23,793 nt of DNA, taken from positions 1 through 23,793 of IMG/VR virus record IMGVR_UViG_3300020348_000012. One strand, written 5' to 3'. Below the pieces are notes generated by a model. That model saw only the letters and a list, made by a program, of their open reading frames with translations, had not been told where the DNA came from and did not search any database. Positions within the stretch are counted from its first letter, which is position 1, and each line of letters begins with the position of its first letter. The position numbers and the translations under genes were made by a program. Below are positions 2,737 to 23,793 of this stretch, one piece after another. This stretch comes from a virus.

Positions 2737-2739
2737 GTG

Positions 2740-3368: not shown

Positions 3369-3660
3369 TGAAATGACAGACGACCAGATAATAAAAAATA
3401 GAGAAGAAAAATATGGGCCACCTTTAGATTGTTTTAATACTTGGGCAAAAATATGTACAGCCTTAGATAATTACGCAAAAGAATCTCCTTGGGAAAATAA
3501 AGCCCACCTATATGCATTAAAGATGGCAGCGTTAAAAATGGTTAGATCTGTTTGGAATCCGTCTACACTCGATAATTATCCAGATGGTAGAAATTATTTC
3601 TCTATCGCTCAGATGTGCAGTAGAGATGCAATTGCTAAGGGGAAAGGAAAACATGAATGA
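3358..3660 (+). CDS. DUF6378-like phage protein (100 aa)
   Basis: The frame opens at 3337, but AAGGAG (3345-3350) supports ATG 3358. The sequence follows the pattern I know for the phage family DUF6378: an R-x-x-x-YG-x-P start (REEKYGPP, 15-22), a helix, then ALKMAALKMVRSVWNPS (53-69) and a DNYPDGRNYF segment where the family has a D-x-W-x-D-ax-GY motif. That family is usually found beside nucleotide or replication genes of phages and has no proven activity that I can cite. The gene ends in an overlap with the primase start (ATG 3657, stop 3658-3660). Confidence 0.65.
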   Translation: MKDNEMTDDQIIKNREEKYGPPLDCFNTWAKICTALDNYAKESPWENKAHLYALKMAALKMVRSVWNPSTLDNYPDGRNYFSIAQMCSRDAIAKGKGKHE

Positions 3661-5816
3661 AAAAATATCATCCGTTTTCCGAAAAAATAGTCAATATCTT
3701 AGCTCGAAAAGTTAATAATGATAACCGTCATTTCTTTAGAGTATTAACAGCTTATTATTTATCCAAAGTAGCATCAATGATGAGATGTAATATTTTAACA
3801 AATGACCGAGACGTCATTCCAGTTAACACTTATGTATTAAACTTAATGGTATCAGGAACAGGTAAAGGGCATTCAACTAATATTCTAGAACGTGAATTCG
3901 TAGCACATTTTAAAAAAGAATTCCTAAATACTATTTTTCCTAGAAAAGCCGAAGAAAATATGCAGACATTAGCTCAAGAAAGAGCGGAATGGCGAATTAA
4001 TACTGGACAAAGTTTAGTTCCACTAGAAGAAGAATACAATACGCAATTAGCTAAATTTCAAGCCCACTTTGAAAGATTAGGAGAATTGGCATTTAGCTTT
4101 GATAGCGGAACTTCTCCAGCTGTTAAACAAATGCGAGAAAAATTATTACTTGCTTCAGCAGGATCCATGAATCTAGAACTAGACGAAGTTGGATCAAACT
4201 TGTCTGCAAATGTAGATGTATTAAATGTATTTTTAGAGTTATACGATGTAGGACTAGTTAAACAAAAACTCACAAAAAATACGAGTGAGAATATTAGATC
4301 AGAGGAATTACCTGGTAATACACCTACTAATCTAATGATGTTTGGTACACCTACTAAATTATTAGATGGTGGACGAATAGAAGAAGAATTTAAACAATTC
4401 TTAGAAACAGGATACGGTCGTAGATTACTGTACGGATACACTATAGATAATCATAGGACTAAGTACGCATCTGCACAAGAACGGTATAAAATGATGGTAG
4501 ACGAAAATTTAGCGAAAGAAATGCTAGATATACAAAGAACCTTTACAGATTTTGCAAAAAGGCCTTTTAATCCTATTTTACGCATGTCTGAAGAAAATTC
4601 GATCTATCTAATTGAATATCAAATGAAATGCGAAGAACTCGCAGACGATATGAAAGATCATATGGCCATCCATAAGGCTGAAATGATACATCGGTATTAC
4701 AAAGCTAACAAACTAGCTGGAGCATATGCGTTTACCGACAATAGTACGGAAATTACTCAAGATCACTTAGATTATGCTATTAGCCTAGTTGAAGACTCTG
4801 GAGAAGCCTTTCATACATTAATGCGAAAACAAGGCTCATATGAGCGTTTAGCTCATTATTTAGCTGATTGTGATAATGAGGTAACTCAGCATGAATTAAT
4901 GGAAGAATTGCCATTTTATAAAGGCACAGAGCTACAGAGGAAAGACCTAATGACATTGGCTACATCCTTTGGATATAGGAATAATATCATAATCAAAAAG
5001 CGAACATTAGACGAAATTGAGTTCTTTATTGGCGAAACTCTAGCCGAGACAGATCTTAATAAATTGACAGTAAGTATTAGTAAAGAATTAGCTTATAACT
5101 ACAAAACAGACTATCCGCCATTTGACTTATTACATAAATTGACTACAGCAGATGGCTATCATTATGCTGCTCATGGATTTGTAAATGGACATAGAACTAC
5201 TGAAAATGTCATAGCAGGATTTGATTTACTTATTCTGGATTGTGATGGGGATGTTTCTATGTCTACGGTTAAGGTGTTGTTGGAAGATTATACATTTCTA
5301 ATGTCAACAACTAAGAGACATACATCTGAAATAAATAGATTTAGACTTATTTTACCCTTGTCTCACAGGCTTAAATTGTCTCCAGGGGACTACTCTAAAT
5401 TTATGATAAATGTGTTTGAATGGTTACCTTTTCCAGTTGATGAAGGAGCCAAAGACATAGCTAGAAAATGGGCTTCTTTTCCTGGAGTTTATGAATATAA
5501 CCAAGGAAGCGTTCTTGACGCCACAATGTTTATCCCAGAAACTAAAAGAGCCGATGAAACAAGGGCTCAAATTACAACAGATGGGGTTAATAATATTGAG
5601 AGATGGTTTTACAATCATACCTCAACAGGCAATAGAGCTAATCACTTGTATAGATACGGAATGGTACTCATTGATGCAAAATTACCATTAGGAGATATCG
5701 TAGAAAAGTTAGAAGCATTTAATAGTAGATTAGATAATCCTTTACCAGAAGAACAATTTAGGAATAGTACAATTAAATCCATTTCTAAAGAATTCACAAA
5801 AAGGAGGGCAATTTAA
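3657..5816 (+). CDS. ATPase-primase fusion (N4 gp43-like primase)
   Basis: The 719-residue protein has two recognisable parts. The N-terminal half holds a P-loop, SGTGKGHS (66-73), and a Walker B-like LELDE (173-177), consistent with a P-loop/helicase-like module. The C-terminal part looks like an archaeo-eukaryotic-type primase/PrimPol. ILDCDGD gives D528 and D530 (metal-binding DxD), STTKRH ends in H555, and RFRLILPLS follows at 561-569, the usual sequence of these phage primases. The length and neighbours fit the N4 gp43 primase, which makes the primers for DNA replication. It overlaps the preceding gene and is followed after 22 bases by the next. The ATPase may translocate DNA for the primase; that is inferred. 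Confidence 0.8.
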   Translation: MKKYHPFSEKIVNILARKVNNDNRHFFRVLTAYYLSKVASMMRCNILTNDRDVIPVNTYVLNLMVSGTGKGHSTNILEREFVAHFKKEFLNTIFPRKAEENMQTLAQERAEWRINTGQSLVPLEEEYNTQLAKFQAHFERLGELAFSFDSGTSPAVKQMREKLLLASAGSMNLELDEVGSNLSANVDVLNVFLELYDVGLVKQKLTKNTSENIRSEELPGNTPTNLMMFGTPTKLLDGGRIEEEFKQFLETGYGRRLLYGYTIDNHRTKYASAQERYKMMVDENLAKEMLDIQRTFTDFAKRPFNPILRMSEENSIYLIEYQMKCEELADDMKDHMAIHKAEMIHRYYKANKLAGAYAFTDNSTEITQDHLDYAISLVEDSGEAFHTLMRKQGSYERLAHYLADCDNEVTQHELMEELPFYKGTELQRKDLMTLATSFGYRNNIIIKKRTLDEIEFFIGETLAETDLNKLTVSISKELAYNYKTDYPPFDLLHKLTTADGYHYAAHGFVNGHRTTENVIAGFDLLILDCDGDVSMSTVKVLLEDYTFLMSTTKRHTSEINRFRLILPLSHRLKLSPGDYSKFMINVFEWLPFPVDEGAKDIARKWASFPGVYEYNQGSVLDATMFIPETKRADETRAQITTDGVNNIERWFYNHTSTGNRANHLYRYGMVLIDAKLPLGDIVEKLEAFNSRLDNPLPEEQFRNSTIKSISKEFTKRRAI

Positions 5817-7503: not shown

Positions 7504-8235
7504 ATGAGTGAATGGGAACTACCAAAAAATGTGGAAACGCAATCCATAGAACGTGTAGGTGGAGGCGGATTTGCATGGGAATCTGGTGTATATGATGCAA
7601 CTGTTAAAATGGTTTATCTTAATCAGTCTGCATCTGAAGCCGTAAGTTTTAATATTATTCTGGAAAATTCAGAAGGTAAGGAGCTAAGAGAAGCCTTCTG
7701 GATTAAATCAGGAAAAGCTAAAGGGAACAAAACCTACTACACAAAAGATGGTAAAGATTATCCACTTCCAGGATACTCAATTGCTAATTCTATGTGCGTA
7801 GCAGTTTCAGGAGATCCATTAGCAAAATGCATGGATTCTGCTGAGAAAAAGACTGTTAAAGTTTGGGACTCGGAGAAAAAACAGGAGGCACCTGCCGAAC
7901 GACCAGTACTAATGGGGCTAGTTAATAAGCCAGTTAAAGTAGCTGTTCATCAAGTTATAGAAAATAGGCAAGTGAAGAATGAGTCTACTGGAAAATATGA
8001 ACCAAGTGGACAGACCCGGACTGTAAATGAATGCAAGTTCTTTGGTAACAAAGATGGCAAAACTGCTGAAGAAATTATTAATAAGACTGAAGCAGTTAAG
8101 TTTGATAAATGGGCTGAAAAGAATACAGGCTCAGTTATTAATAAAGCAACTAATACGCCTAAAGGTAGTAATTCTGCTGCAAGTATTATGGGTAGTACAC
8201 CCACAGACCCAGCAGATTCACTATTTGCTAACTGA
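7504..8235 (+). CDS. Single-stranded DNA-binding protein (N4 gp45-like)
   Basis: The 243-residue protein has the features of the N4-type SSB family: a short leader, a GGGGFAWESGVYDATVKM start to the OB-like domain (about 19-36), beta strands with aromatic and basic residues, a YYTKDGKDYPLPGYSI segment (78-93), and a disordered Ser/Thr/Asn-rich C-terminal third ending in an acidic tip (PTDPADSLFAN). In N4 the corresponding protein (about 265 residues) coats replicating DNA and also activates late transcription by host RNA polymerase. Whether this one does both cannot be read from sequence. The tip could dock partners. The stop overlaps the resolvase ATG by one base. Confidence 0.82.
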   Translation: MSEWELPKNVETQSIERVGGGGFAWESGVYDATVKMVYLNQSASEAVSFNIILENSEGKELREAFWIKSGKAKGNKTYYTKDGKDYPLPGYSIANSMCVAVSGDPLAKCMDSAEKKTVKVWDSEKKQEAPAERPVLMGLVNKPVKVAVHQVIENRQVKNESTGKYEPSGQTRTVNECKFFGNKDGKTAEEIINKTEAVKFDKWAEKNTGSVINKATNTPKGSNSAASIMGSTPTDPADSLFAN

Positions 8236-8708
8236 TGTTAGTTGTAGGGATAGACCCAGGTACTAATGGAGCAATCGCTGTACTGGATTCTGCGAATCCA
8301 GACAGCGTTGCTCTACTTAATTTAAAGAATAATGAAGTTTGGTACATATGGCACTGGCTAAATGACCTAAAATTAGTAGAAAAGAAATGTAGAGTATGGG
8401 TAGAAGACGTACATTCTATGTATGGTATGTCAGCTAAATCTAATTTTGGATTTGGTAGAAATTTTGGAACCGTACTTACGATTGGAGAGTTACTTACAGG
8501 AACTTTTCCGAGAACAGTTACACCTAAAATATGGCAAAAATACATAGGAGTAACTGTCAAAGGTAAAGCTATCAAAAAAGACGTAGCTAAGATAGCTAAA
8601 GGCTTATACCCTAACGCTGAACTATATGGTAAGAGAGGTGGTCTATTAGATGGCAGAGCCGATGCATTAATGATTGCCTATTATGGATTAAGACATAGAC
8701 GATTATGA
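8235..8708 (+). CDS. RuvC-like Holliday junction resolvase
   Basis: The 157-residue length is close to RuvC. The RNase H-like active site is visible: D7 in VVGIDPGTNGAIAVLD, E57 in VWVEDVHS, and D139 and D143 in GLLDGRADALMIAYYG. The loop MSAKSNFGFGRNFGTVLTI (65-83) matches the conserved helix that follows the second acidic residue in phage RuvC proteins. It would cut four-way junctions or branched replication products before packaging. It begins in a one-base overlap with the SSB stop and ends in an ATGA overlap with the oxygenase gene, so it sits in the same transcript. Confidence 0.9.
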   Translation: MLVVGIDPGTNGAIAVLDSANPDSVALLNLKNNEVWYIWHWLNDLKLVEKKCRVWVEDVHSMYGMSAKSNFGFGRNFGTVLTIGELLTGTFPRTVTPKIWQKYIGVTVKGKAIKKDVAKIAKGLYPNAELYGKRGGLLDGRADALMIAYYGLRHRRL

Positions 8709-9769: not shown

Positions 9770-9930
9770 CGCACTTAAAAAGTATTTTATATACGATAGT
9801 AGCTGTTATAGTTTTACTTGCTAGTCTCCTATTATTACCAGTAGCTATAGTAGTAATAGGAGGAATAGTACTGTACTTTGTTATTAGAGTATTATTGTGG
9901 GAACCGCCAGAAGAAGATTCTAGATTCTAA
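9766..9930 (+). CDS. Small membrane protein (54 aa)
   Basis: The gene reads ATG 9766 to TAA 9928-9930 and overlaps the previous stop in an ATGA junction. The product is a short basic N-terminus (MTHLKS), then a nearly unbroken hydrophobic stretch from about residue 7 to 44 broken only by P25 and G32-G33, then R41 and an acidic tail (EPPEEDSRF). That is one long or two very short membrane helices. A holin-like or membrane-anchor role is possible but unproven; the length is small for known two-helix holins. Its stop overlaps the stop of the convergent giant gene. Confidence 0.75.
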   Translation: MTHLKSILYTIVAVIVLLASLLLLPVAIVVIGGIVLYFVIRVLLWEPPEEDSRF

Positions 9931-12900
9931 TTTACCCACTTAGCTACATCCATAATAGTTTCATACCCAGTTACATTATCAGCTTCGTCAACTAAATTAA
10001 AAGTCTGAAATACATTAGGTGAAAATTGACCACCTAGCCAAGAGCTATTTATATTAGCTAAAGTAGGTACTCCTGTAATCTCCTGGATTACAGCAGAAAC
10101 ACCTACAGCTGTAGGACTAGTTTTTAGTAATTGTCTAGATGCTCTAGTATTACGTAAGTAGTACGAAAGGAATGCAGTAGCTCCGATAACGTCAAGAGCT
10201 TCCAGTACAGGAATCAACGCTTCATCAAACAATACAAAAGCGGTAAGTGCATCATGCATTGCCGTGCTAAAATCTTGTCCTTTAACATGCATAGCATGTT
10301 CCATCATTACATACCTGCCCATAAAGTCAGTCATCTGAACTAATTGTCTAGCTGCTTGTAAAGGAGCACTACCCTTAGTCATGAATGCCCATGATGCGAT
10401 AGTTTGTAAGCTTTGTGGAATTCTATCACCAACCTTTTTAAATTTTCCTTTAAAAATAGTACGTTTCATACGATTCCAATAACCATCAATCTGTGCTTCA
10501 TTTACATCCTCAACAATTAATGAATTTAAACCAGCTTCACTCATTCTATGGAGTTTATTACGTTGAATTCTATCCATTAATCTACGTGCTTTAAAAGCTT
10601 CTGGGCTATTAACTCTATCCAAGCCTTTAGTTTCGATAGTGTGCATTAGTTGAGCATGTTGAATATTATGATCTTTATATTTTATATATTCATTAATCCC
10701 CTCAATAGTTTTCTTAAAGATAAAAGAAAGAGGAATTTTACGCATCAATAGTTGAAAAACATTAGAACGTAGATTTCCAAATACTACAGCAGGCATGGTT
10801 AGTACTATCCGACTTTTACCATAACCTACTGTTTGTCTAAGTGCGTAATGCATTAATCCAGCTATTTGTTTACTTACTTGAGCAAGCCAACTATCTCCTT
10901 CAAACACTTTCATTTGAGTAATATCAAGTTGCCTATATCCAAATACTTTATCAATAATATCTTCCCTAACCATAAATGTTCCGTTTACGGCATATTCTTG
11001 TATATAAGTTCTAATAGCTTTAGGAAGTTTTCTAAATCTATCAATGTATTTAGAATCTGGATCTAAGAAATCTACAAATTGCTCTGGATGTTTACCATAT
11101 AGATCCTCTTGTTCATGAATGAGAAGATCAATTGTATCCATATCATTTTTAATTGTGTTAGAACGATCAGCGTATCCTGATTCCATATGTGCTAACACAT
11201 TTTGAATTTCTAAATCAGGACGTAAAAGTTCTTTTACATCGGAGTGATTCATCATTATACGATAGTCTGTAATCCTATTATTTTGATCTCTAATTGGGGT
11301 AAAAGCAAACCTCTCATCAAAACCTAAGTTCTTAGCTAAATTACCACTAAACTTTTTAAACGAATCAATCTTAGATTTAATCAACGCAAAATCAGGTTTA
11401 CCTGTTGCAGGATGTACATAAGCAGGATTCTGTAATAGTATCTCAGTTAATGAGGTTCCCATATGTCGTTGATTGGTCGTAGACATAATCCCGGATATAT
11501 CAGCAACTTCTGGAATGTTTCTATTGATATACATTGTATCCAGTGTTTGTGATCTATCTATTTTACCTAATGGGTACGAGTGTTTATATCCACGAGCAGC
11601 CATCTTATCTTTATCCGCAGCTGATCCAATTTTAATATCTGTAAGATTATCCAGACGTTCAACAATATAGCCTTTAACCATTTGAACAGGATCTCCATCA
11701 AACAGATCTCTTTGAGATTTTGTTTTGTACCAGATATGATTATCAAGTAAATCAATCATTCCATTAGCATCTGGATCTGCATTAAATTCTCTAGTAGATA
11801 GTTGCTGAACTTTCTCCCGTTGTTGAATATCAAGATGAGGGATAGAAGATATAGTCGCATATGCATCTAATAAATTAACTTGTGCTGGAGTAAAGTCTCC
11901 TTCTAAGTGGTCAAGAGCAATAGAATACGCATTAGTATATGCATCATGTTTTTTGCGTTTACCAGTTGCAATCCAGTAACCTAATTCATCTGCATATGCT
12001 ATAGCTTCACTATCTTTAGTTAACCCAAGTTGTCTTCTAATTTGATCTTTTAATCTACTTCTTTCAATTCTAGCAACCTTATCCTCTCCTAATAAGTTCA
12101 TAATTTTTCTAGTAGCATTAGGATCTTTATCTGCAAATCCTAAAGTATGCATCTTACGAAGACTAGATAGATCTGCTCTTAAAAGTACATCAGTAAGAGC
12201 TTCTCGAGTTTCAAAAGACATCCATTTATCATCTCCACTATCATCTGGTCTGGATTTCCAGATAGTTTTAAACCATTCATTAGAGAATGTCTCTGCTTCT
12301 CTACGTCTTTTAGATATATTAATTTTAGAATGAAGTAGTTGTTCTACCAGTTTCGGATTCTCTAAAGCACCGCCTCCTATTTCTTTAGCAACACCACGCA
12401 TAGTAAAATTAAGCAAACCCATAATGTGATCTCTAGTTGCTTTAGCGTGAACACTATCACTCATGGTTAGGTACCCTGCATATGTACCCATAGTTGCAAC
12501 TTTAAATGGTATTGGAGCCGTTTCTCCACCTGGCCCGTATTTTTCTGTTTCAGCAGCTACTGTTGCAACAGCTTGATCAAAAAATTCAATTATCCGAGCG
12601 TCAGAGCGTTCTAAAAATTGAATAGTTTTACTATCTAATTGACCATATTTACTTTTATGTTTATTTTGCATAGCAACTAATTGTTCCGTAATCGCTATAG
12701 CTTCAGCATAAGCTGTCGTATTATTGGACTCTACTTTCTTATTAAGTATTCGTTTAAAAGCATTTACAATTGATTGAACGAATTCCATAAATTTAGTTAA
12801 ATAGCTTCGATCTTTAGCAAGTTGTTTTGATTTCATATAATCAATTAAAGATCTATTCGTAAGAGCCATTGATAAAAACTCAGTTAGTCTATCCTTAGAA

Positions 12901-15900
12901 TTTGCTGTGTCGAAAGCATGTTTATATTGTGCTTTTGCTAGATTAGTTTCTGCACCTGTAGCTAAATTAACTGGACTAGTTCCTTTAGGACGGAATACTT
13001 TCCAGCCCTCACCCTTAAAATCTTTATGTAGTTCAGCTTCTAATTCATTATGTAAGCTTTCAAGTCTATCTGCTAATACAGGATCTTCTTCCAGTGCAAC
13101 CAATGTCATAGCATGAACCATTTCATGAAGATATGCTTCCTGTGGTGATTGCCCATTACGCCCTCTAGGAGGTAATTGACTAACAGACATAGTTATGCGT
13201 TCACTTTCTGGTTCATAAGTTGCTTGAGTAATTCCTTCTATTTTCTCCATTGTTAAAGTAAGATCATTAGTTTCTTGAAACCCGTCAGATATAATATCTA
13301 ATACTTCATTTAACGTAGATGTATGTGAATCCATTTCATCTTGACTATCGTAGTACTTACCTGAAAGAGCTTTAAATTTATTAAATAGTGATCTAACATT
13401 ATCACTAGTAATAGCCCCTAGTTCTTCAGTAGAAGTTATTTCACCTTTAGGAAAAGCGTCTAAAGAATGAAGACCCAATTTTTTACCTAATTTTGTAAGT
13501 TTTATATCTAAATCTTTATTATAAGCAGGAAATAAATTAGTTTGCTCTCTATAGTGTTTATTAAAATTACCACTATCTCTAGATATCTTTGGGTTATAAC
13601 CCATAGATTTTCCCATTGCTTCAAAAGATGTAAAGCTAAATGTTTCTGTATTCTTATTATAGTTTTGTTCAAACTCATTTAGTGTGTCAGTTTCAGATAA
13701 TTCTTCATTAGATAAATTATACATATGGTCTATATTAGTGTAGCCATCTTCTAGTAGCTTTTGTCTTTGCTCACGTACTTTTTGTGTAATTGCTTTAGCT
13801 CTTTCAGATATAACACTAAGACTAGATTTGTCATTCCACTCAAGGTATTCTGGATTAGCTTCCCATACACGCATTTTTACTTTATCTAATCTAGTAAGTG
13901 TTTTACCTACCTTGGCATTCTTAAATCCCATTCTCAATCTGTCAGCGTCAAGTTTATGTTCCTTTATAAAATCATTTAATTTTGCAGCTTTAGTTCGATT
14001 ATCTATATCTTGTCTAAACTCTTCCATTAATTGAATAGCTTTAGCAGTTAATTTTTCTTCTCTAGCTATTCGTTTTTGTTCTTTCTCAGTTAGTTCTATA
14101 GCATCTACTATATCTTTACGATCTGTATTACGCAGAACCCCTAGCATTTGATTATGCATTGCTTCCATAATGCTATGGGTTGTATTGAGTTCCCAGTGTA
14201 TTTTGTTATAGGTTCTTGTTAAGTAATTTGCCCAATTACTACTGGCATTAAATCCATCATGAAGAGCATTTATTTCTGCTTTTTTCAAAAGTAGCCTAGT
14301 CATAGCTGATGCGTCTTGGTTGATAACCTGACGAATTAGCACAGCTAATCCAGCTGCATCGAATACCAATGATCGTTTAGGTGTAGATCTGGATGTATCT
14401 TTTTGTCTTTCACGATCATAAAAGTTAATTTCAGCTTGGTTCTCTTCTATATCACCTTTGTTAGTTGTAAATTTAGTAGAACTTAAATCAATACCACCTT
14501 CAATTGTTCCATCTTGGAGCCTTGTAGCTAAAGCACCAGCTACTTGAGGGTAGAATTTCATTAAGCCTTGTTTATCCTTAACCAGATCAATAACTTCTTG
14601 TTTAGTTAAACCAGGCCTAACAGCCCTAAGTTGCTCAGTAGCCTTATCCTCAATAGCTTTGCGAGTCTTCGCTGCCATGTTTTTAGGAGCAGGTTTGCCT
14701 GTTTTCTTATTAGTAATGCTAAAGCCATCTTTAGTCTTTATAACGTTAAACGTATAGGCGCCTTGTGTAACTTCAACAGGTACATCTTCCATAACAGGGG
14801 CATCTAAATTAATTTCATCTAATTTATTCTTAATAGCCTCTTCAAAATGAACCATAAATACTTGGTGTAGTACGTCTCCCATTTCGACTATTGATTGTCG
14901 AGGTTCTACAGTATCCCCAAGTAACTCATCTAAACTAGCTTCAAATCTAGGAGCAACACGAGTATTTAATTCTGCACGTACCTGTATGTCATTAAGCTTT
15001 ACTTTAAAAGCAGGAGGAGTTATACCTAAATCTTTTTTAGTACCTTCTATTAACATTCGACCAAGAGCTCCTCGATCTGTTTGATTAAATGCATTTAGTG
15101 TTTCTAAAGCATCCATAAAAGGTGTAATAATTTGCTTTTCATAATTTTTTCTATTTTCAAAAAATCCATATCTTTTGTATTTATGGGTGTCTACAGGAAG
15201 CGCTGTTTTTGAGGTTTCTTCTACCAAATCTCTTAGTACATCTGCATGGCTAGGTTCCGACAATGTCGTGTAGTAAACTAATTCTTTATCATCTAAATTA
15301 CCATCACCAATTTGTTTACGAATCCATTTTCTACGGTTAGGTTCTACATCTTGATGGGCTGTACCCTCTAACCATGCTTTATAATTATTAACAGCAGTTT
15401 TTATATCTGGTGTTTTGATAGTACCTGGGATATCTCTAGACGCCCAAGGATTTCCAAAATGCTGAGATGCAGTTAATCCTGGAATAGTATTAGAATTAAA
15501 AATTCTTAATGTATAAATTCTATTTGTAAGATCTTCTTTAGCATATTGTTTAGCGTCTGGTACTCCTTTTCTATTAGTAACTTTAGTAAGGAATGCAGGT
15601 ATATCTGAACGTAGGAGTTCCTCTTCTTCATTATTAAAAATCTCTTTGTATTCTTTTTGAATAGTACTAATTCGTGAGTACATAGCTTTATTTACTTCAT
15701 TACTTACCTCATTAGCTATATTAGCTATTCCTCCACCATACATCTTCATAATAAAAGGATACTTAACAACCTCCCTCATAGATTCCTGATCTCTAAACTC
15801 TGGATAGATAATTATAAGAGCGGCATTAATCTTGTTATAGTCCTCTTTAAAATTAGCTTCTCCCTCTTTTGTCAGAGTATATCTTTTTTTATCAACTAGG

Positions 15901-18900
15901 TCTTTTGACACTCTTGAAAATACTTTTTTCTTATACTTATCTTTGTACCATTCCCAAGCAACATCAGCAGAGTCATTATTCTGCATAAATTTAACTAGAT
16001 CTTCATAAACACCAGGTTCTTTTGGATCAAAGGACTTATCTTTAAGATTATGGCCTACTTGACTATTCTTACGTATACGTTCTTCTTTGTCCCACATAGG
16101 AAACTGGAGTACATTTATAGCCCAACCATTAGAAGTACCGTCCCTTTCAGTATAAAGATCAGTTTCAAAAGTAGATTTTGATTTGTCTTCAATTCGTCTA
16201 AAATTCTTAGTATATCTTTTATTTCTACTTGGATAACCTGCTTTAGTTTTCTGAATAGCTTCTACTGTCATGTATTTAGATAATGCAGTAATACCATTTA
16301 GGAGAGTAATATCAGCTTCTTTAAATGTATTATCTTTTTTAATTGCTGATAAAGCTGAGGATAGATCTTGAGAAGCTCTGTCTTTATCCTTCTTAGCCTT
16401 GGCATCTTTAGGTTTAGTTCTAAGAATTCCTTTAGCGGCATTAAGACGTTGCATAGCTTCTACAGCTGCTAGAACATTTGAGTGATTAATAATATTCTGA
16501 AAGGCTTCTTCTGATTCAACTAAATCTTTTTTCTCTACAGCAAAAGCTTCATTAATTGCTAATTTAAAATTAGTAAACTGTTGTTCATTATCTACGGAAA
16601 TTTTATTAAGTCCCCAAGCACCTACTAAGCCTCTAGTAAGTTTACTATTTTGAGGATTAATCTTACCTACCTGCATATACCTATGGTGGCTTTGTAATTT
16701 CCAAGCTAAATGAAATGCTGTTAATTCCCCACGATCATATGCCTGTAATAGTTCCTGCAAAGTATCTAGCATTCCATTATTTCTAGATGTTTTACTGGCT
16801 ATTTCAACGTCATGGAATAATTGTATTTTTTCACCATCCTCAGTAGTTTCGTATAACTCCTCAACATCCATTAGCTCTTTCAAGACATCTGTGTCTCGTA
16901 AATCAGCCACAAGATCCATGGACTCTAATTTACTCCATACAACATTTTGAAGTCTTTTAAGTGTTTCATAAACTTCCCCACCTTTAGGAGCTTCTGTAAA
17001 AGTACCTGTAGATGGGTTTATTGGAGGAGGAGTTTGAAAAGGGCCAGGACTATTAATCATATTAGCCTTAGAGATACTTTTCATTTCTTCTAAGGCATCA
17101 AAAGTACTTTGGTTCCATTTTTGATTTTCATCTACTTTAATATGTAAGTAATGCTGTTGTTGTTCTAATGGTATAGGTTTACCTTCTGGATATTTTTTTC
17201 TAATCTCTTCATTATCAGAGACTTTTTCATGCGTAGGTGCATTGTTAAAAGCCCTATTTTCATTGTAATCATCAAAATTCCAATATTTTTTCTCTACAGA
17301 AAAATAAGCACCTTTATCAGTGCCTTGAGCAATTTCTAAGGCCATCATTCCAAGTGCAGGAGCTAGGAGTTCAAAATATAGATCCGCTCCTACTTGGTCT
17401 ATAGGACTGTCTTTAGGGATTTTTTTAGCTCTTAGATCTAAAATACTAATAGCATGGTTTCCCATATCCATAGCTGCATCATGGTACCCAAAACCAACGT
17501 CATTAAGTTCCTCATCTTCATTTCTATTAAGTGTTTGGTTCTTACCACTATATAGAAAAGCTTCTTTTGCAAAGTCGTTATCCTTAAATCTATTATTGTT
17601 AGGGGTACGTTGTCTAAAAGACATAGCTGTTAACATCATGGTAAATACTATCTGATTAGGTAGTACACCTTGATTGTTATTACCAGTAGGATCTTCTTGA
17701 AGAAGTAAAGTTAACGGGGCTCTTAAAGCATGATTTCTAACATTTAATAGTTCAGATGTAGGCAATACCTTAGTCGTGGTCTGAATATTACCAGATGCAT
17801 CTTTAATCTCTCTACTTACTCTAGTGTATTGACCATCTTTATCATATGCATCATTTATGTCTCTACTTAATTCTTCTACTTTCCATAGAATAGGATTCCC
17901 ATCTTTATCTACGTCTGTAACATTATTAACCGTCCGTATTACAACCTCTTTTCTTGATAAATCTATAGAACTAACTTGATCATATCTATTTTTAAAATGC
18001 GTAAAGTTTTTAGATAATGTTTCAGCCGATGCTTGTGTTACACCTAAATTCATTAAGGCATTAACTAACGATTCCTGAGTATCAAAATCTTCATCCATCA
18101 GAGTATTAACAGCATCTTTTAATGTAGGTCGTGTGGATCCGATTTGAACTAAGTCTGTAAAATACGCACCAAGTACTTTTAACTGCCGTTCTAAATTAGT
18201 AGCCGTTAATTTACCGCCTAATACTTTAAGTACACCTCCTGTAATAGCTCTTTTGTATATTCGTTTGCTGCCTTCAATAAAATTAGGAAACAGATTTAAT
18301 TGTGTTCCTTTTTCTGTTGTATCTTCGGCAGATCTGTCGAATAACGAGAGTTGCTCTCCTTTTTCACCCGGTCTAGGAGGTGGAGTAGTCTCATCAAAAG
18401 GTGTAGTAGTTGGGCCAGGTGGTTCATCAGATCTTTCAGGGACTTCACCTTCTGGAAAAAGGTCAAGTTGTTCTCCTGGTTCTGCTCCTTCAATCTTTTC
18501 TCGTCCTTGAATTTCTTTATTGAGAGCAATATAGCTTTGTTGGAGAGATTCGTGTTCATTTTTTTCCTCTGGAGTTATTGTACCCTCGTCTATTTTCTTT
18601 TTAAGTTCCAACCCTCTTTGTAAAATAGCTTCTAGGTTTTCTTTAAGAATAGCAGTCGGAGTTGTAGGAATGTCTTCAACTGATATTCCCTCTATTGTTG
18701 CTTCATCTATTTCAGGTGCTTTAAGAGAATCTTTAGCTTTTTTTAATCTTCTTAAAACTTCTTCGTGTTCAGCAAGATTTCGGGCTTTATTGAATTCATT
18801 TTTAGCCATAGAAGTATTTCTATGTCCTTCAACTACCCCCATAATCCAATTACCATAATTTACTTCCCCAGCAAGCGTATCAATTAATCTACCTGAGTTT

Positions 18901-21900
18901 TTATCTATTTTTGTAACATACGCAAATTTTCCATTATATAATTTCTTTTTATGTGCTTCATCAATTTGAGTCTCGGTCATATCTGTTACTACTTCATAGG
19001 TCATATCTCTACTATTTTCAGCTTTAGTACCCACAACAGCTACGGCTTTACCAGTACTAGTAAATATTTCATAGGCATTATCAAATGCATTTAATTTATT
19101 GTTTATATTAGTAGCATGAGTACGCATATCTGAAACAAGAGATTCAAGTCGTCTTGTGAGTTTTACATGATCTGTTAATTCAGTAAGGGCTGTTACAATG
19201 TCTGTGTAGTAAGCATGTAATCCTTTAAATTTCTTGCTCTCCCCTTCAAGAATTTCCTCATGTACCGTTGCCATATCTTTATCAATAGCGTCTTGTTTTT
19301 CACCTCTTTCTTTTTGAATTCTTTTTTGATTAAGTTTAGCTGTCCAGAATTTTATGTCATCTGGGGACTTGGCTTCTGCTAATTTCTTTTCTAATTCTTC
19401 TGGAGTTAACTTTTCTATTTCATCAAGCCTATCTTCTAATGACCCTAGAACTCTCTTACCAGTTCCTATTTTTTCTTCTAGTTCTTTTATTTCTTTTGAG
19501 AGTTGTTCTCGTACTTTTGTAATCTGTGCATCAGTTAAATCTTTATCAATTAATGCCTCTACATGATCTAATTTTGTAGAAGGAGTTGTATCAGTTCGTG
19601 GTTTATTTCCAAATATTAATGAATCAATTGGGACAGTTTCAGTTACTCCTGCAAGTTTTACATGAACCTTCCCATCTCTTTCTTGTTTGCCTAGGATTGT
19701 TTCAATAACAAATCCTTGTTCACCTTTTTTAAGTAATTCTTCATCAGTTGTATTTAAATGAACTACGTCTCCTGGTTTAAACTTTCCACTTGGATCAAAA
19801 TTCGTAATATCTGGATCTTCTTCTTCGCTCATCTTTTTAATTAATGTAATTTGAGCATCAACTTCTTCATCTGAAATTTTGTCTATATCTCTACCTGTTC
19901 CATCAGCCCTAAATCCTTTTGGATTTGCGGATCCTGGCATAGTCGGAGACTTAGGACTTGCTTTATATGATTCATTTTCAAGTACCTTAGTTCTTCTATC
20001 ATTAACGTCTATTAATTGTTTTTCATAGACTTTGAGCATTGTTGGGTTAAGAGGAGCTTGTAACTCATTAAGCAATTTATCCTGTTTTTTAATTGCTCCT
20101 TCTAGGTATGTAGCATGTTTCTGTTCTTCTATTTTAATAGCTTCCTGTTTTTTCGGCCCAGGTATGTCACTTTGATTAATCTTTTCAACATTACTCTTAT
20201 GTTCAGCTATTTTTGTTTCTAATTGGAGTTCAAGTTCTAAGAGTTCAGTCATTTTTCTTGCCCCAATCCCTACAGGTACTGCTTTGCCCTCATGTTGTAC
20301 ATATTCAACAGTATCTTCAAGTGTGATTGGATCAGGCAGTTGCTCTTCTAAATTAGTTTTCTCTTCTAGTCTTTTCTCTATTTCAGCTTCTAAATCATCA
20401 TTCATTGCTTCGATAGCGTCATCTAATGACATGGCACCATCTGAAACTAACTGTTCATAAGGCTTATATAGCTTTTTCAGTAAGGTATTAGTAGTTTCCA
20501 GTTTTCCAGGTCGACCAGGTAAACTTAAAGTTTTACCGTGTAGATTGGGTATTTCATCATAAGCATCTTGTAAATCAGTTAATTGTTCAGTAAGAGCGTC
20601 TAATTTAGATTTTAAATTAGAAGGTGCTTCTTGCATCTTTTTAATTTTTTCTATTTTTTCTTGAGTGCTCTTTATTTCATTTTCAATTTTTTGTTTAGTT
20701 GCTTTGTCTGTTTTAGCTGCTGCTTTCTTTCCAGAAGGATCCCATGCTTTTTTAGCAACTTTTTTAGTTACCTCTTTGGCTGTTCCTCCAACTGCCATTG
20801 CTGGTGCCATAGTACCAACTGCAAATCCTTCTGGAATTCCTCCTTCAACTGCTGCTTTACCAATATCAACTTTTTTCTGTAATGCCGCTTGTTCCAGCAT
20901 TGAATTAGTTGTTCCTTGTACAAACTCAGCACCAAACATTTTAGGAGGAGCCCATACTACTTTACCTAACGTACGTACAGTAGGATGTATAGTTGCCAAT
21001 ACACCATTCGTTATCTGTGTGCCCCATAAACCAGCACCACCTAATCCTGGGATTAATTTAAGTTGTTTTACAACTATACCTGCACTTACTTTTTCAGATA
21101 CTTCTTGTAAAGTAGAAAATATTTTAATATCCGTAAGTATTTCAGGTGTTAATGCCTTTTCACCATGCTCGGCAACATACTGCTCAATATTAGCCTTAGT
21201 TCTGCCTCTAGCTAAGCCAGTAAGTAGCCCAAGTTGGACAGGTATATTTCCATATACTAATGCTACCGTATATCCAAAACTATCAAGACCTTGTAGGGCA
21301 AGAGTACCTTTGTATTCTTTAAATAGCTCTAAAGCTGCTGCCGCATTGCCATGCTCTTTAGCAATTACACGCATTGCTGTAGTAGCACTTTCAATATATT
21401 TTCTATTATATGGATGTGCTTCATGCCATATTTTAGAGAATTCTTTAAGCTTAGCTTGTTGGTCTTGGTTTTCTTTCGCATCCTTATCTAAAGTAGCAAT
21501 TACTTGATACTTTTCACTATCCTTAAATGCCTGCAACTCAGCTGATAGTCCTTTATTTTCTTGAATTGCTAAATAGTTTAATTTGTCTTGCTGAGTAATT
21601 TCATCATTAGGATCATGTGTAATAGACGACAGAAAACTTCCAGCTTTAAGTCTATTATTATGATCATTAATATGTTCTGTTAAAGTTGTAGCTCCTACAA
21701 ATCCTTGAAATATAGTTTCAACAGGATCAACTAAACCTCCTACTAATTTATTGTACATTCCTGATACTGATGTTTCTTCAGGATGATCCAAAAGATTAGC
21801 TTGATAGTTTGCAATATCATAAGCCATGAATACTTGAGCTTCGATTTTATCGCTAAAAGGCATCCATGTACCGTCTTGTGTAAGTAGACGATATGTTCCA

Positions 21901-23793
21901 TCTTGTAATTCTACTAAGTTACGATTTACAGATACTATTGGAGATGATGGAGTAAAATCTGGTAGTTTATAAATTTCTTTAATCAGTGCTTCATTAGGAG
22001 TTTTGTAAGAACTGTATAAATCCTCATAAGTTTTAGCCTCAGCAGGGCGAGGAGTAGCAGGACTATAAATATTTTCACTAACTGTTTTTGGTACAGATCG
22101 AGGACTATAAATATCTGGCTCTGGAACATCTATTTGCGGAACTGCTTCTGGTGTTACTTCTGGTACCGTTTCTGGAACTTCAGGAGTAACAGCAGGTTGT
22201 TGATAAGTTCCTTTAGGATCAGAAATAATTTCTGCTCTCTTTGTAAGAGCTTGTTTACGTTTGTTATCAAAATAAGCAGAATCATGTTTATCTTCTATAA
22301 TTTTTTTATTGGTCTGGACATTGTCCATAATGGTATCAAGACCAGAATTTAAATACTGATTTGCGGAAAGATCCTGACGTCCAGTTGCAAAATCTCCATA
22401 ACCACTAAGACTATCCACACTAAACTTCTTTTGTTTTTTACGGCTACTTAGTTCTTGATCTATTCTTTTAAATTTTCGTTGTTCTGCTTGCAGTTTTTCT
22501 GCTCTTGCACGGTCTTTACCTGGATCTCTTCTATCTATATCAACACTAGGAGGTTTAGTAATAGGTGTAGGAGGCTTGTGCTCTTTAAGATGAGGTAATT
22601 TGTGAGTAGGTGTTAAAACAACTTCTTCTTTATCTGCCTTATTAGTAATTTTTCTAAGTTCATCTATTCGTTTAAATTCTCTTCTTTGTGCTTGTAGTCT
22701 TTCAGCTTTTCTACGATCTGCCCCAGTATCTCGTAAATCTACATCAGCAGGAGGAGCTTCTTGTACAGCCTTTGCAATACCACCAGGAGCACTAATATCA
22801 ACAGATGGATCAATTGTTTTAATAGGAGGAGGTGTTGGTTTGTCTTCTGGTTTATGTGTTTGACTAGATACTGGCTTGGACGTCTCCTCAACTGCTTCTG
22901 GCATTTTTGTAACAAACGGTGTTTGAGGAGTAGGTTTAGTAAAATCTTGTAATACACCATCTTTGTAATGAATTTTTTTCCAATGCCCCATACCTTCTTT
23001 AAAACTATCAAGATCTTTACGTTTTTTGGTAGCTACTTTTTTTCCACCAGGGCCTTCTTTAACTCCACCTTTAAATGGTCGTTGTTTAAATAGAGCAATA
23101 CCAGCAGTTTCTATTTCTTGCATTGTAGGATGAGTTTTTTTAGTTGCTTTAATAGCTTCCAGCACACGACTAAAACCAGTATTATATGATGCAGCAGCTA
23201 ACTGTTGAGCTTGTCGTTCGTCAAATCCTTTAAGTTTCCATCTATTAACATGCTTAGATAAGTACTTAGCTCCAGCATACAACTGATGAGCGGCATTATT
23301 TACATCGCCACCAGGTAACATTTCTTCCATGGTTTGTTGTGTTACTTGAGCTATACCTCTAACATTGGTTGGAGATTTAGCAGTTTGTTTATTGCCTGAT
23401 TCTTCAAAAACTAACGAACGAAATAATGCTTTAGGAAGTCCAAATTCTTCAGCAGCTCCATCTATAGCCGTAAAAATCTCATTTTCTTCTGTAAAAGATT
23501 TAGGAGTAGTAAGAGGGTCAGCTGTTACATCTGTAACTACAGGGTCTGGATTTACTTTATCAGAAAACGTAACATTACCAAATTCACCTGTAGATAAAGT
23601 ATCACTGTTAGTACCGACTACATTGGGAGTTGCCCCACCCATACCATATTTGTGATTTATAACCTGTGCTAATCTAGTAGCTTTAAGATTATGGACACTA
23701 TTGCGTTTAGCATTTAGTACATTAGCTAAACTAGCGGCTTTAGTCTGTAAAAGGGAGTCTCTTGCGGAAGGTTTTGGTGGAGTTGCGCCATTA
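9927..23793 (-). CDS. Giant virion RNA polymerase with lytic transglycosylase and metallopeptidase domains (partial, N-terminus outside window)
   Basis: The frame runs from TAG (9927-9929) to the right edge without a stop, so 4621 residues are visible. The Met at 23642, used here as residue 1, has no ribosome site and is preceded by coding-like sequence (VINHKYG), so it is probably internal. Domains: SLT transglycosylase (57-160); Pro/Lys-rich linker with a duplicated charged repeat (301-398); partly hydrophobic helical region (about 775-980); coiled coils and an SH3-like segment; three QLxLF motifs (1725-1785); a T7/N4-family RNA polymerase core (about 1890-3290); an HExxH peptidase (H3506, H3510, E3588); and a C-terminal region with hydrophobic helices, comparable to the N4 gp50 packaging domain. 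N4 vRNAP has about 3500 residues; this is over 1100 longer. Likely role: packaged protein injected with the DNA to transcribe early genes. Confidence 0.92.
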   Translation of the reverse strand, partial: NGATPPKPSARDSLLQTKAASLANVLNAKRNSVHNLKATRLAQVINHKYGMGGATPNVVGTNSDTLSTGEFGNVTFSDKVNPDPVVTDVTADPLTTPKSFTEENEIFTAIDGAAEEFGLPKALFRSLVFEESGNKQTAKSPTNVRGIAQVTQQTMEEMLPGGDVNNAAHQLYAGAKYLSKHVNRWKLKGFDERQAQQLAAASYNTGFSRVLEAIKATKKTHPTMQEIETAGIALFKQRPFKGGVKEGPGGKKVATKKRKDLDSFKEGMGHWKKIHYKDGVLQDFTKPTPQTPFVTKMPEAVEETSKPVSSQTHKPEDKPTPPPIKTIDPSVDISAPGGIAKAVQEAPPADVDLRDTGADRRKAERLQAQRREFKRIDELRKITNKADKEEVVLTPTHKLPHLKEHKPPTPITKPPSVDIDRRDPGKDRARAEKLQAEQRKFKRIDQELSSRKKQKKFSVDSLSGYGDFATGRQDLSANQYLNSGLDTIMDNVQTNKKIIEDKHDSAYFDNKRKQALTKRAEIISDPKGTYQQPAVTPEVPETVPEVTPEAVPQIDVPEPDIYSPRSVPKTVSENIYSPATPRPAEAKTYEDLYSSYKTPNEALIKEIYKLPDFTPSSPIVSVNRNLVELQDGTYRLLTQDGTWMPFSDKIEAQVFMAYDIANYQANLLDHPEETSVSGMYNKLVGGLVDPVETIFQGFVGATTLTEHINDHNNRLKAGSFLSSITHDPNDEITQQDKLNYLAIQENKGLSAELQAFKDSEKYQVIATLDKDAKENQDQQAKLKEFSKIWHEAHPYNRKYIESATTAMRVIAKEHGNAAAALELFKEYKGTLALQGLDSFGYTVALVYGNIPVQLGLLTGLARGRTKANIEQYVAEHGEKALTPEILTDIKIFSTLQEVSEKVSAGIVVKQLKLIPGLGGAGLWGTQITNGVLATIHPTVRTLGKVVWAPPKMFGAEFVQGTTNSMLEQAALQKKVDIGKAAVEGGIPEGFAVGTMAPAMAVGGTAKEVTKKVAKKAWDPSGKKAAAKTDKATKQKIENEIKSTQEKIEKIKKMQEAPSNLKSKLDALTEQLTDLQDAYDEIPNLHGKTLSLPGRPGKLETTNTLLKKLYKPYEQLVSDGAMSLDDAIEAMNDDLEAEIEKRLEEKTNLEEQLPDPITLEDTVEYVQHEGKAVPVGIGARKMTELLELELQLETKIAEHKSNVEKINQSDIPGPKKQEAIKIEEQKHATYLEGAIKKQDKLLNELQAPLNPTMLKVYEKQLIDVNDRRTKVLENESYKASPKSPTMPGSANPKGFRADGTGRDIDKISDEEVDAQITLIKKMSEEEDPDITNFDPSGKFKPGDVVHLNTTDEELLKKGEQGFVIETILGKQERDGKVHVKLAGVTETVPIDSLIFGNKPRTDTTPSTKLDHVEALIDKDLTDAQITKVREQLSKEIKELEEKIGTGKRVLGSLEDRLDEIEKLTPEELEKKLAEAKSPDDIKFWTAKLNQKRIQKERGEKQDAIDKDMATVHEEILEGESKKFKGLHAYYTDIVTALTELTDHVKLTRRLESLVSDMRTHATNINNKLNAFDNAYEIFTSTGKAVAVVGTKAENSRDMTYEVVTDMTETQIDEAHKKKLYNGKFAYVTKIDKNSGRLIDTLAGEVNYGNWIMGVVEGHRNTSMAKNEFNKARNLAEHEEVLRRLKKAKDSLKAPEIDEATIEGISVEDIPTTPTAILKENLEAILQRGLELKKKIDEGTITPEEKNEHESLQQSYIALNKEIQGREKIEGAEPGEQLDLFPEGEVPERSDEPPGPTTTPFDETTPPPRPGEKGEQLSLFDRSAEDTTEKGTQLNLFPNFIEGSKRIYKRAITGGVLKVLGGKLTATNLERQLKVLGAYFTDLVQIGSTRPTLKDAVNTLMDEDFDTQESLVNALMNLGVTQASAETLSKNFTHFKNRYDQVSSIDLSRKEVVIRTVNNVTDVDKDGNPILWKVEELSRDINDAYDKDGQYTRVSREIKDASGNIQTTTKVLPTSELLNVRNHALRAPLTLLLQEDPTGNNNQGVLPNQIVFTMMLTAMSFRQRTPNNNRFKDNDFAKEAFLYSGKNQTLNRNEDEELNDVGFGYHDAAMDMGNHAISILDLRAKKIPKDSPIDQVGADLYFELLAPALGMMALEIAQGTDKGAYFSVEKKYWNFDDYNENRAFNNAPTHEKVSDNEEIRKKYPEGKPIPLEQQQHYLHIKVDENQKWNQSTFDALEEMKSISKANMINSPGPFQTPPPINPSTGTFTEAPKGGEVYETLKRLQNVVWSKLESMDLVADLRDTDVLKELMDVEELYETTEDGEKIQLFHDVEIASKTSRNNGMLDTLQELLQAYDRGELTAFHLAWKLQSHHRYMQVGKINPQNSKLTRGLVGAWGLNKISVDNEQQFTNFKLAINEAFAVEKKDLVESEEAFQNIINHSNVLAAVEAMQRLNAAKGILRTKPKDAKAKKDKDRASQDLSSALSAIKKDNTFKEADITLLNGITALSKYMTVEAIQKTKAGYPSRNKRYTKNFRRIEDKSKSTFETDLYTERDGTSNGWAINVLQFPMWDKEERIRKNSQVGHNLKDKSFDPKEPGVYEDLVKFMQNNDSADVAWEWYKDKYKKKVFSRVSKDLVDKKRYTLTKEGEANFKEDYNKINAALIIIYPEFRDQESMREVVKYPFIMKMYGGGIANIANEVSNEVNKAMYSRISTIQKEYKEIFNNEEEELLRSDIPAFLTKVTNRKGVPDAKQYAKEDLTNRIYTLRIFNSNTIPGLTASQHFGNPWASRDIPGTIKTPDIKTAVNNYKAWLEGTAHQDVEPNRRKWIRKQIGDGNLDDKELVYYTTLSEPSHADVLRDLVEETSKTALPVDTHKYKRYGFFENRKNYEKQIITPFMDALETLNAFNQTDRGALGRMLIEGTKKDLGITPPAFKVKLNDIQVRAELNTRVAPRFEASLDELLGDTVEPRQSIVEMGDVLHQVFMVHFEEAIKNKLDEINLDAPVMEDVPVEVTQGAYTFNVIKTKDGFSITNKKTGKPAPKNMAAKTRKAIEDKATEQLRAVRPGLTKQEVIDLVKDKQGLMKFYPQVAGALATRLQDGTIEGGIDLSSTKFTTNKGDIEENQAEINFYDRERQKDTSRSTPKRSLVFDAAGLAVLIRQVINQDASAMTRLLLKKAEINALHDGFNASSNWANYLTRTYNKIHWELNTTHSIMEAMHNQMLGVLRNTDRKDIVDAIELTEKEQKRIAREEKLTAKAIQLMEEFRQDIDNRTKAAKLNDFIKEHKLDADRLRMGFKNAKVGKTLTRLDKVKMRVWEANPEYLEWNDKSSLSVISERAKAITQKVREQRQKLLEDGYTNIDHMYNLSNEELSETDTLNEFEQNYNKNTETFSFTSFEAMGKSMGYNPKISRDSGNFNKHYREQTNLFPAYNKDLDIKLTKLGKKLGLHSLDAFPKGEITSTEELGAITSDNVRSLFNKFKALSGKYYDSQDEMDSHTSTLNEVLDIISDGFQETNDLTLTMEKIEGITQATYEPESERITMSVSQLPPRGRNGQSPQEAYLHEMVHAMTLVALEEDPVLADRLESLHNELEAELHKDFKGEGWKVFRPKGTSPVNLATGAETNLAKAQYKHAFDTANSKDRLTEFLSMALTNRSLIDYMKSKQLAKDRSYLTKFMEFVQSIVNAFKRILNKKVESNNTTAYAEAIAITEQLVAMQNKHKSKYGQLDSKTIQFLERSDARIIEFFDQAVATVAAETEKYGPGGETAPIPFKVATMGTYAGYLTMSDSVHAKATRDHIMGLLNFTMRGVAKEIGGGALENPKLVEQLLHSKINISKRRREAETFSNEWFKTIWKSRPDDSGDDKWMSFETREALTDVLLRADLSSLRKMHTLGFADKDPNATRKIMNLLGEDKVARIERSRLKDQIRRQLGLTKDSEAIAYADELGYWIATGKRKKHDAYTNAYSIALDHLEGDFTPAQVNLLDAYATISSIPHLDIQQREKVQQLSTREFNADPDANGMIDLLDNHIWYKTKSQRDLFDGDPVQMVKGYIVERLDNLTDIKIGSAADKDKMAARGYKHSYPLGKIDRSQTLDTMYINRNIPEVADISGIMSTTNQRHMGTSLTEILLQNPAYVHPATGKPDFALIKSKIDSFKKFSGNLAKNLGFDERFAFTPIRDQNNRITDYRIMMNHSDVKELLRPDLEIQNVLAHMESGYADRSNTIKNDMDTIDLLIHEQEDLYGKHPEQFVDFLDPDSKYIDRFRKLPKAIRTYIQEYAVNGTFMVREDIIDKVFGYRQLDITQMKVFEGDSWLAQVSKQIAGLMHYALRQTVGYGKSRIVLTMPAVVFGNLRSNVFQLLMRKIPLSFIFKKTIEGINEYIKYKDHNIQHAQLMHTIETKGLDRVNSPEAFKARRLMDRIQRNKLHRMSEAGLNSLIVEDVNEAQIDGYWNRMKRTIFKGKFKKVGDRIPQSLQTIASWAFMTKGSAPLQAARQLVQMTDFMGRYVMMEHAMHVKGQDFSTAMHDALTAFVLFDEALIPVLEALDVIGATAFLSYYLRNTRASRQLLKTSPTAVGVSAVIQEITGVPTLANINSSWLGGQFSPNVFQTFNLVDEADNVTGYETIMDVAKWVN
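12843..13235 (-). other. HExxH zinc metallopeptidase domain of the giant protein
   Basis: AYLHEMVHAMT gives H3506, E3507 and H3510. About 78 residues later RLTEFLSMALTN supplies E3588, in the place of the third zinc ligand in the gluzincin-type peptidases found in large phage polyvalent proteins. It lies directly after the polymerase core. Possible roles are self-cleavage that frees the polymerase after entry, or cleavage of a host protein; neither can be read from sequence. Confidence 0.75.
13773..17975 (-). other. Single-subunit (T7/N4-family) RNA polymerase core
   Basis: The catalytic motifs occur in the right order. R2321 is followed at T7 spacing by NPQ (2329-2331) and T-x-GL, as in the T7 DxxGR region. 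Motif A is DGTSNG with catalytic D2501. Motif B is R2623-x3-K2627-x7-Y2635-G, identical in spacing to T7 R627/K631/Y639. NQDAS (D3110) corresponds to T7 SQDGS. Motif C is HDGF with D3129. Domain ends are estimated from the N4 mini-vRNAP and are uncertain by many tens of residues. Confidence 0.92.
18288..18470 (-). other. Three tandem QLxLF sliding-clamp-type motifs in a Pro-rich linker
   Basis: QLDLF (Q1725), QLSLF (Q1764) and QLNLF (Q1781) each follow Gly-Glu or Gly-Thr. They sit in a segment rich in P, E, T and G that leads into the RNA polymerase core. QL[S/D]LF is the classic pentapeptide by which bacterial proteins bind the beta sliding clamp DnaN, so two copies match it exactly and one differs only at the third place. 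The match to the motif is direct; binding is inferred. Confidence 0.7.
22449..22742 (-). repeat. Duplicated charged repeat in the N-terminal linker
   Basis: Two diverged copies of an approximately 30-residue unit lie at residues 301-329 and 367-398. Both run VD-x-RD-x-G-x-DR, then A-E-[RK]-LQA, then [RE/RK]FKRID and an EL end. The intervening 37 residues are Pro/Lys/His-rich. The unit is strongly helical and charged. It looks like an old internal duplication within a flexible tether between the transglycosylase and the rest of the protein. Confidence 0.7.
23163..23474 (-). other. SLT-type lytic transglycosylase domain of the giant protein
   Basis: Residues 57-160 carry the goose-lysozyme/SLT pattern. 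An N-terminal helix (FTAIDGAAEEFGLP) is followed by LVFEESGNKQTAKS, where E81 of the E-S-G motif is the expected catalytic acid. RGIAQVTQQTM (95-105) replaces the usual GLMQ segment, and AAASYNTGFSRV (149-160) matches the A-YN-G helix. Such domains cleave the glycan backbone of peptidoglycan. T7 gp16 has one at its N-terminus and uses it during DNA entry. The same role is inferred here. Confidence 0.85.

Follow-up and report, generated by a model that had tools for sequence, protein, structure and literature searches.

The question raised by this locus is whether a single phage polypeptide joins a peptidoglycan-cutting enzyme, an RNA polymerase and a metallopeptidase and, if it does, how far such a protein is new. 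The sequence analysed (hereafter, the window) comes from IMG/VR, where it forms a virus record of 23,793 bases, and residue numbers refer to its P0001 frame. The gene and the regions within it that are central to the argument are:

9927..23792, minus strand: giant virion RNA polymerase (vRNAP) gene; 4621 aa visible, stop-free, open at the contig end
23133..23465, minus strand: SLT lytic transglycosylase domain (P0001 110-220) with predicted catalytic Glu E131; PF01464, E 6.8e-13
14013..16895, minus strand: N4-type single-subunit RNA polymerase (P0001 2300-3260); alignment and AF2 model
12813..13430, minus strand: zincin-like metallopeptidase domain (about P0001 3455-3660); HEMVH at 3556-3560, third ligand E3638
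10218..13430, minus strand: C-terminal C2-type domain, opening with the zincin-like domain (P0001 3455-4525)

Sequence comparison suggests that the protein is the vRNAP of an uncultivated N4-like phage, a third ejection protein with an N-terminal SLT domain like that of T7 gp16, and we give this reading a probability of roughly 0.8. Fusions of N4-like RNAPs to metallopeptidase and lysozyme/transglycosylase domains have already been described, in the parts of Iyer et al. (2017, PMC5512222) on which we draw. Thus, the architecture is of a known kind and a claim of novelty for it is weak. What is new, judging from the protein comparisons, is a distinct uncultivated clade of SLT-bearing, often very long vRNAPs that swap modules.

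Extent and integrity of the giant frame

A first-pass annotation had placed an SLT domain, an N4-type polymerase and an HExxH domain in one uninterrupted frame of at least 4621 residues. Profiles, alignments and structure models bear this out, and all eight residues named in that annotation are present once its numbering (P0001 minus 50) is shifted by 50. In a near-identical contig (L003) the gene starts 17 residues earlier, so the full length is about 4638 aa and about 17 N-terminal residues of the window's vRNAP fall beyond the contig end. In joining enzymatic domains of unrelated kinds in a single chain, it resembles the polyvalent proteins of Iyer et al. (2017), whose early delivery into the cell would be predicted here as well.

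The window is a single metagenomic contig with the gene running off its end, and another contig (L002) leaves the window sequence at residue 2456, near L002's own end; we left L002 out as a check on the C-terminal half. Both observations would be compatible with two genes, one for an SLT and one for a vRNAP, having been fused artificially by chimeric assembly or a sequencing error. However, L003 agrees with the window at 99.97% identity over 3497 aa, and its independent record (G001) holds the SLT within a 4166-aa frame. The zincin is encoded at the other end of L003's record (L068) with 100% identity to the window, seven further distinct relatives likewise have the SLT as part of the giant frame, and the whole chain is cysteine-free. 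From L003/G001, L068 and the seven relatives we reject an assembly error, and we regard a joined-gene origin of the frame as extremely improbable.

RNA polymerase domain and gene context

The virion RNA polymerase family phrog_2206 matches the window protein with an E of 2.1e-144 (PHROGs). For comparison we used 26 named Schitoviridae records, 24 of them chosen for diversity from 335 matches and two, N4 and RPP1, taken by accession. When the window protein is aligned with these 26 and with three unnamed relatives, N4 residues 1556, 1667, 1675 and 1948, which we take to be catalytic in the mini-vRNAP, are matched by D2551, K2677, Y2685 and D3179. An AlphaFold2 model of residues 2300-3260 (pLDDT 71.8, pTM 0.61) has N4 mini-vRNAP as its top PDB match in Foldseek (E 3.7e-7). 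VIA-align 2 aligns the model with N4 mini-vRNAP (2po4) at Z 12.5 (594 aligned, rmsd 5.1), and the next match is T7 RNAP at Z 10.4. Alignment and model thus agree with the T7/N4-type polymerase with D, K, Y and D residues that had been proposed, N4 mini-vRNAP being the best match, and the combination of fold and residues is that of a Schitoviridae-type vRNAP.

On the opposite strand, the window encodes a set of replication genes that are those of RPP1:

342..1331, plus strand: exonuclease, N4 gp42-like; phrog_2139, E 5.4e-122 (same phrog in RPP1's annotated gp42-like gene)
3657..5816, plus strand: primase, N4 gp43-like; phrog_2135, E 3e-273 (same phrog in RPP1)
7504..8235, plus strand: single-strand DNA-binding protein, N4 gp45-like; phrog_743, E 3e-57 (same phrog in RPP1)

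The structural side is provided by L003, in which the order MCP, phrog_2130, phrog_2050, phrog_2220, two genes and vRNAP corresponds to N4 gp56-gp50 (the scan passed over a 105-aa frame that separates MCP from its neighbour in this order). No PHROG match was identified for the L003 genes of 292 and 688 aa. Taken together, the order from MCP to vRNAP and the opposed replication genes are as in N4 and RPP1. A tRNA-Tyr gene (1996-2071) is interspersed with the replication genes. Positions 8705-9289 encode a 194-aa protein that aligns at E 4e-45 to a portion of phrog_61, a family labelled 2OG oxygenase, and has weaker matches to DNA endonuclease families; the oxygenase label may stem from another domain of phrog_61.

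Zincin-like domain and C-terminal region

The match to phrog_2206 covers residues 3487-4595, which identifies the C2 domain of Schitoviridae-type vRNAPs. In a profile comparison by hhalign (98%, E 2e-13), the motif and the third-ligand Glu of the N4-type zincin are matched in the window by HExxH 3556-3560 and by E3638, so that the peptidase-like domain in the first-pass annotation (there H3506, H3510 and E3588; here H3556, H3560 and E3638) carries the motif of a zincin-like metallopeptidase. The Pfam family PF04450 matches at no better than E 0.05, and no curated family cut-off is passed. The window-type domain aligns more strongly (99.5%, E 9e-23) with the start of N4 C2, which no longer has the motif; between the two N4-type stretches themselves the similarity is weak (32%, E 5e-4). 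In VIA-align, the model of the CTD (pLDDT 58) places residues 3455-4525 on N4 vRNAP 2373-3405 with Z 17.4 (613 aligned, rmsd 27.5 overall), and its next-best matches, which are weak, are zincin peptidase chains (Z 5.3-5.5).

We conclude that the window's zincin is the counterpart of the degenerate stretch that opens N4 C2, and not of N4's own HExxH domain. We read the alignments as pointing to two tandem zincin-like units, with the motif kept by N4 in the first and by this clade in the second. At the start of C2 in the N4 vRNAP (L036), residues of about 2373-2560 resemble a degenerate second zincin copy. The relevant part of the N4 study reports C2 (residues 2376-3500) as having no significant structural homology (PMC12633501). 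A degenerate zincin opening N4 C2, with its motif kept here, would revise the division of the C-terminal part.

An HExxH motif occurs downstream of the polymerase in all 26 named vRNAPs, 1037-1360 residues from the C-end, and we therefore reject the peptidase as the novelty of the window protein. The distances form two groups, 1053-1087 (eight named phages) and 1216-1312 (17), with 1.245.O carrying two motifs at 1037 and 1360. At 1065 residues, the window belongs to the first group. In two named phages another HExxH precedes the polymerase, starting at frame residue 1198 in R7L (L055) and 1294 in RPP1 (L061).

Retention of the corresponding stretch without HExxH in 17 of the 26 named vRNAPs, along with the weak family-profile matches, would be expected if the domain were a structural part of C2 that is no longer a peptidase. 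However, H3556, E3557, H3560 and E3638 are invariant in a 20-row alignment (A5, positions H157, E158, H161 and E239). This suggests selection on the site, and we consider a purely structural role unlikely.

A different possibility is that the zincin cuts the polyprotein, in the virion or on entry, and that the three activities work as separate proteins. Iyer et al. suggest zincin processing as a theme of polyvalent proteins in the text drawn on here (PMC5512222). Recombinant N4 vRNAP, in the account given in part of PMC12633501, was recovered without degradation, which speaks against self-cleavage in N4. The absence of cysteine along the entire chain also fits joint passage, and it is improbable, in our judgement, that the activities are separated in this way.

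SLT domain and its distribution in the uncultivated clade

The PF01464 domain scores 48.6 bits against a curated cut-off of 21.3, with E131 present; the SLT called in the first-pass annotation is thereby recovered by profile search. Its motifs are E131-S132, GIAQV and YNTG, and the ES, G-x-x-Q and YN-G motifs are conserved across five aligned SLT copies. In PHROGs, residues 109-299 also match phrog_342 with an E of 3e-11. This family, labelled "internal virion protein with endolysin domain", we take to be that of T7 gp16 (internal virion protein with SLT). The match spans positions 18-177 of the 1235 in the profile and so does not extend over most of the gp16 family length. The window protein may work like gp16, to judge from this resemblance, but is not a gp16.

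Searching with the C-terminal alignment A2 recovered 31 loci, with vRNAP lengths in the clade of 3.1-6.0 kaa. The SLT is in the giant frame of nine of the 32 records searched, two of which are near copies of the window. Counting proteins with known N-termini, with the window and its near copies taken once and G017/G032 once, gives 16 distinct proteins; left out are G001 and G005 (near window copies), G017 (the G032 protein) and records without a complete N-terminus. The SLT is present in half of the 16 (window, G002, G009, G012, G013, G014, G018 and G021) and absent from the other half (G003, G007, G020, G022, G026, G029, G031 and G032). The SLT closest to that of the window is that of G002 (56%), and lacking the domain are G003 and G007, the nearest relatives of the window's protein. 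The G012-type SLT has its best match in a different transglycosylase family, phrog_4067.

In the tree, the 16 clade proteins group together at 100/100, and a branch of 2.99 separates them from five named ones; the program flagged long branches. On the C-terminal tree, where "SLT" stands for any PF01464 match and covers more than one type, the domain requires at least four changes (4-4 over bootstraps). As few changes as observed were found in 16 of 500 shuffles, so the label is somewhat clustered. At least four gains or losses of a wall enzyme in a polymerase that is predicted to be ejected allow SLT-bearing proteins to be compared with SLT-free sisters. The A2 search of bacterial genome contigs for relatives gave 45 pattern matches, none of which was confirmed.

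No other SLT was found in the records of the eight SLT-free clade proteins, and most of these records are fragments; thus, the domain appears to be dispensable or replaced. Scans of the N-terminal regions of these proteins (Pfam for 8/8, PHROGs for 7/8) revealed no wall enzyme of another kind. Absence of the SLT, whose activity is predicted, from half of the clade leaves some room for an SLT that serves lysis or assembly rather than entry, or that is a dead passenger. Yet the ES, G-x-x-Q and YN-G motifs are intact in the five aligned copies, the domain is placed N-terminally as in the SLT-bearing internal virion proteins of phrog_342, and the chain has no cysteine. We consider a non-entry role quite unlikely, and favour the ejected vRNAP with a functional wall enzyme.

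Comparison with named phages and known systems

The first-pass annotation had described these parts as usually separate. This stands for the SLT itself, which was not found inside the vRNAP of any of the 26 named phages (records searched whole) and hence is less common. It fails for the other parts, given the HExxH that follows the polymerase in 26/26, a T4-type lysozyme at the vRNAP N-terminus in 4/26 (three over the cut-off, one under) and the fusions described in the cited portions of Iyer et al. (PMC5512222). In domain order, polymerase then HExxH is common to all 26, and an N-terminal SLT occurs in none. Two of the 26 records, Presley and RG-2014, have an SLT in the frame directly upstream of the vRNAP; SP-076 and Pylas give two more lysozyme matches, each in a small frame of its own. 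An upstream SLT frame and an N-terminal lysozyme may represent alternative means of keeping a wall enzyme within one cassette. A tblastn search of named phages with the first 300 aa gave matches in 4 of 50,697 records, none annotated as vRNAP.

The window protein shares with N4 gp50 the RNAP fold and catalytic residues, the C2 domain, the absence of cysteine and the gene order. It differs in that gp50 has 3500 aa, no SLT match, and a separate HExxH domain (motif at 2228) with a degenerate copy at the place of the window's HExxH. The window protein also resembles the vRNAPs of Vibrio phages 1.097.O, 1.026.O, pVa5 and PJN101, which have an N-terminal wall enzyme, a polymerase, no cysteine and an HExxH, here 1058-1061 residues from the C-end. 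These four differ in having a T4-type lysozyme (PF00959) for the SLT and a length of 3.2-3.5 kaa; 1.026.O, the only one of the four included in the tree, is separated from the window by a long branch.

PMC5512222 describes N4-like RNAPs as carrying a fused metallopeptidase domain in every case (elsewhere in that source, in almost every case) and, in some, a lysozyme/transglycosylase as well. The Moraxella prophage protein DR90_1081, described there, combines all three, and differs from the window in an additional PBECR1 RNase domain. Giant virion polypeptides with an RNAP also include the P23-45 tail tape-measure RNAP and the crAss-like giant vRNAPs, whose polymerases are, in the passages cited, cellular-type and not T7/N4-type (PMC10770324, PMC10136315). 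T7 gp16 shares the N-terminal SLT and, by analogy, the place of third ejection protein, but has no polymerase.

Absence of cysteine and predicted mode of action

The window chain has no cysteine in 4621 aa, as is characteristic of Schitoviridae-type vRNAPs. About 48 would be expected from 16 plus-strand frames (32 in 3077 aa), although these replication-side frames may include non-genes, and about 13 from four late L003 genes (5 in 1758 aa). Two of these four genes, which lie upstream of the ejection genes, have no cysteine, nor do the two genes directly before the vRNAP in L003. Altogether, the six late genes before the vRNAP in L003 (517-9917) encode 5 Cys in 2738 aa, and four of the six have none. 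Late genes are generally cysteine-poor; thus, the contrast is smaller against them, and low cysteine is not special to an ejected chain.

None of the 16 distinct clade proteins (window plus 15) has a cysteine, over a total of about 72,000 residues that takes in the fused helicases; cysteine is likewise missing from 25 of the 26 named vRNAPs (1.245.O has one). Cysteine absence in the vRNAPs of LUZ7, LIT1/PEV2 and Presley, and a possible role in tail, periplasm or membrane passage, are set out in the cited parts of PMC3715699 and PMC5795418.

The first-pass annotation had pictured a protein that enters with the DNA, and a chain that lacks cysteine throughout its 4621 residues is what one would expect if it passes as a whole, which supports an ejected vRNAP. 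We predict that the chain would leave the capsid ahead of or together with the DNA, that the SLT domain would cut peptidoglycan locally, and that the cysteine-free chain would then cross the periplasm. The polymerase would transcribe early genes and help to pull in the DNA. The zincin-like domain would most likely act inside the cell, where it could clip the chain (relieving C-terminal inhibition) or hit a host protein. We infer all of these steps, as well as the place of action. Pertinent passages on related phages describe DEV gp73, gp72 and gp71 (the vRNAP) as functionally equivalent to gp14, gp15 and gp16 (PMC10925440). For N4, the sections cited state that wall activity is missing in the ejection proteins and that the polymerase is inhibited by its CTD (PMC12633501).

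Additional modules in the chain

One further module lies within the window's polymerase, about 50 residues after motif B:

15168..15587, minus strand: DUF4326-like module (P0001 2736-2875)

The PF14216 match has an E of 0.028 and 15.5 bits (20.3 bits in L004) against a cut-off of 25, so we call the module DUF4326-like only. It is 38-45% identical to copies elsewhere in the chain of five relatives, and was absent at this position from the 18 relatives aligned over the polymerase. Six vRNAPs (those of the window, L062, L097, L074, L083 and L101) carry the module in differing places; it precedes the polymerase in G002, G013, G021 and G031 and follows it in G014. DUF4326 domains usually have a cysteine motif, and in the window's stretch no cysteine is left. 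DUF4326 is proposed, in the cited part of PMC9503650, to process terminal phosphates of ADP-ribose derivatives.

An SF1 helicase lies inside the vRNAP frame of 5/32 clade records versus 0/26 named phages, in 25 of which a helicase match is in a separate short frame. The carriers are L062 (G002), L097 (G014), L098 (G018), L100 (G026) and L103 (G025). The fused helicase is AAA_30, with UvrD_C_2 in G014, G018 and G026, and is placed after the polymerase and ahead of the zincin; the G025 sequence ends before reaching its polymerase. Four fused stretches, with bounds set by eye, have no cysteine in 2384 residues and an intact Walker A. Nine stand-alone helicases of related phages, some of which may be near copies, have 55 Cys in 3928 aa. 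This control took the longest frame per stretch, leaving out 2/11 (L107 and L108) without Walker A; G025 is the sole phage of the stand-alone set also seen with a fused helicase.

We tentatively propose, at somewhat less than even confidence, that the clade vRNAP is a cysteine-free delivery chain whose fused enzymes lose their cysteines and enter together with the genome, the SLT, SF1 helicase, DUF4326-like and 2OG-oxygenase domains being exchangeable cargo. Helicase-bearing vRNAPs may then skip host supercoiling for promoter opening. If this is correct, the DUF4326-like module inside the window polymerase could tune transcription, and travelling domains would be recognizable in the sequence by the cysteines that they have lost on fusion. 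A fusion of a DUF4326-like module or helicase to an N4-like vRNAP was not found named in the limited literature consulted, which is weak evidence of absence.

Other vRNAP frames of the clade carry additional domains. The vRNAP of G020 (L082:553-3852) has an N-terminal 2OG-Fe(II) oxygenase domain (PF13532, E 4.1e-11), and the 5963-aa frame of G014 (L097:1729-19617) also encodes DUF7831 (PF25176, E 3.4e-28).
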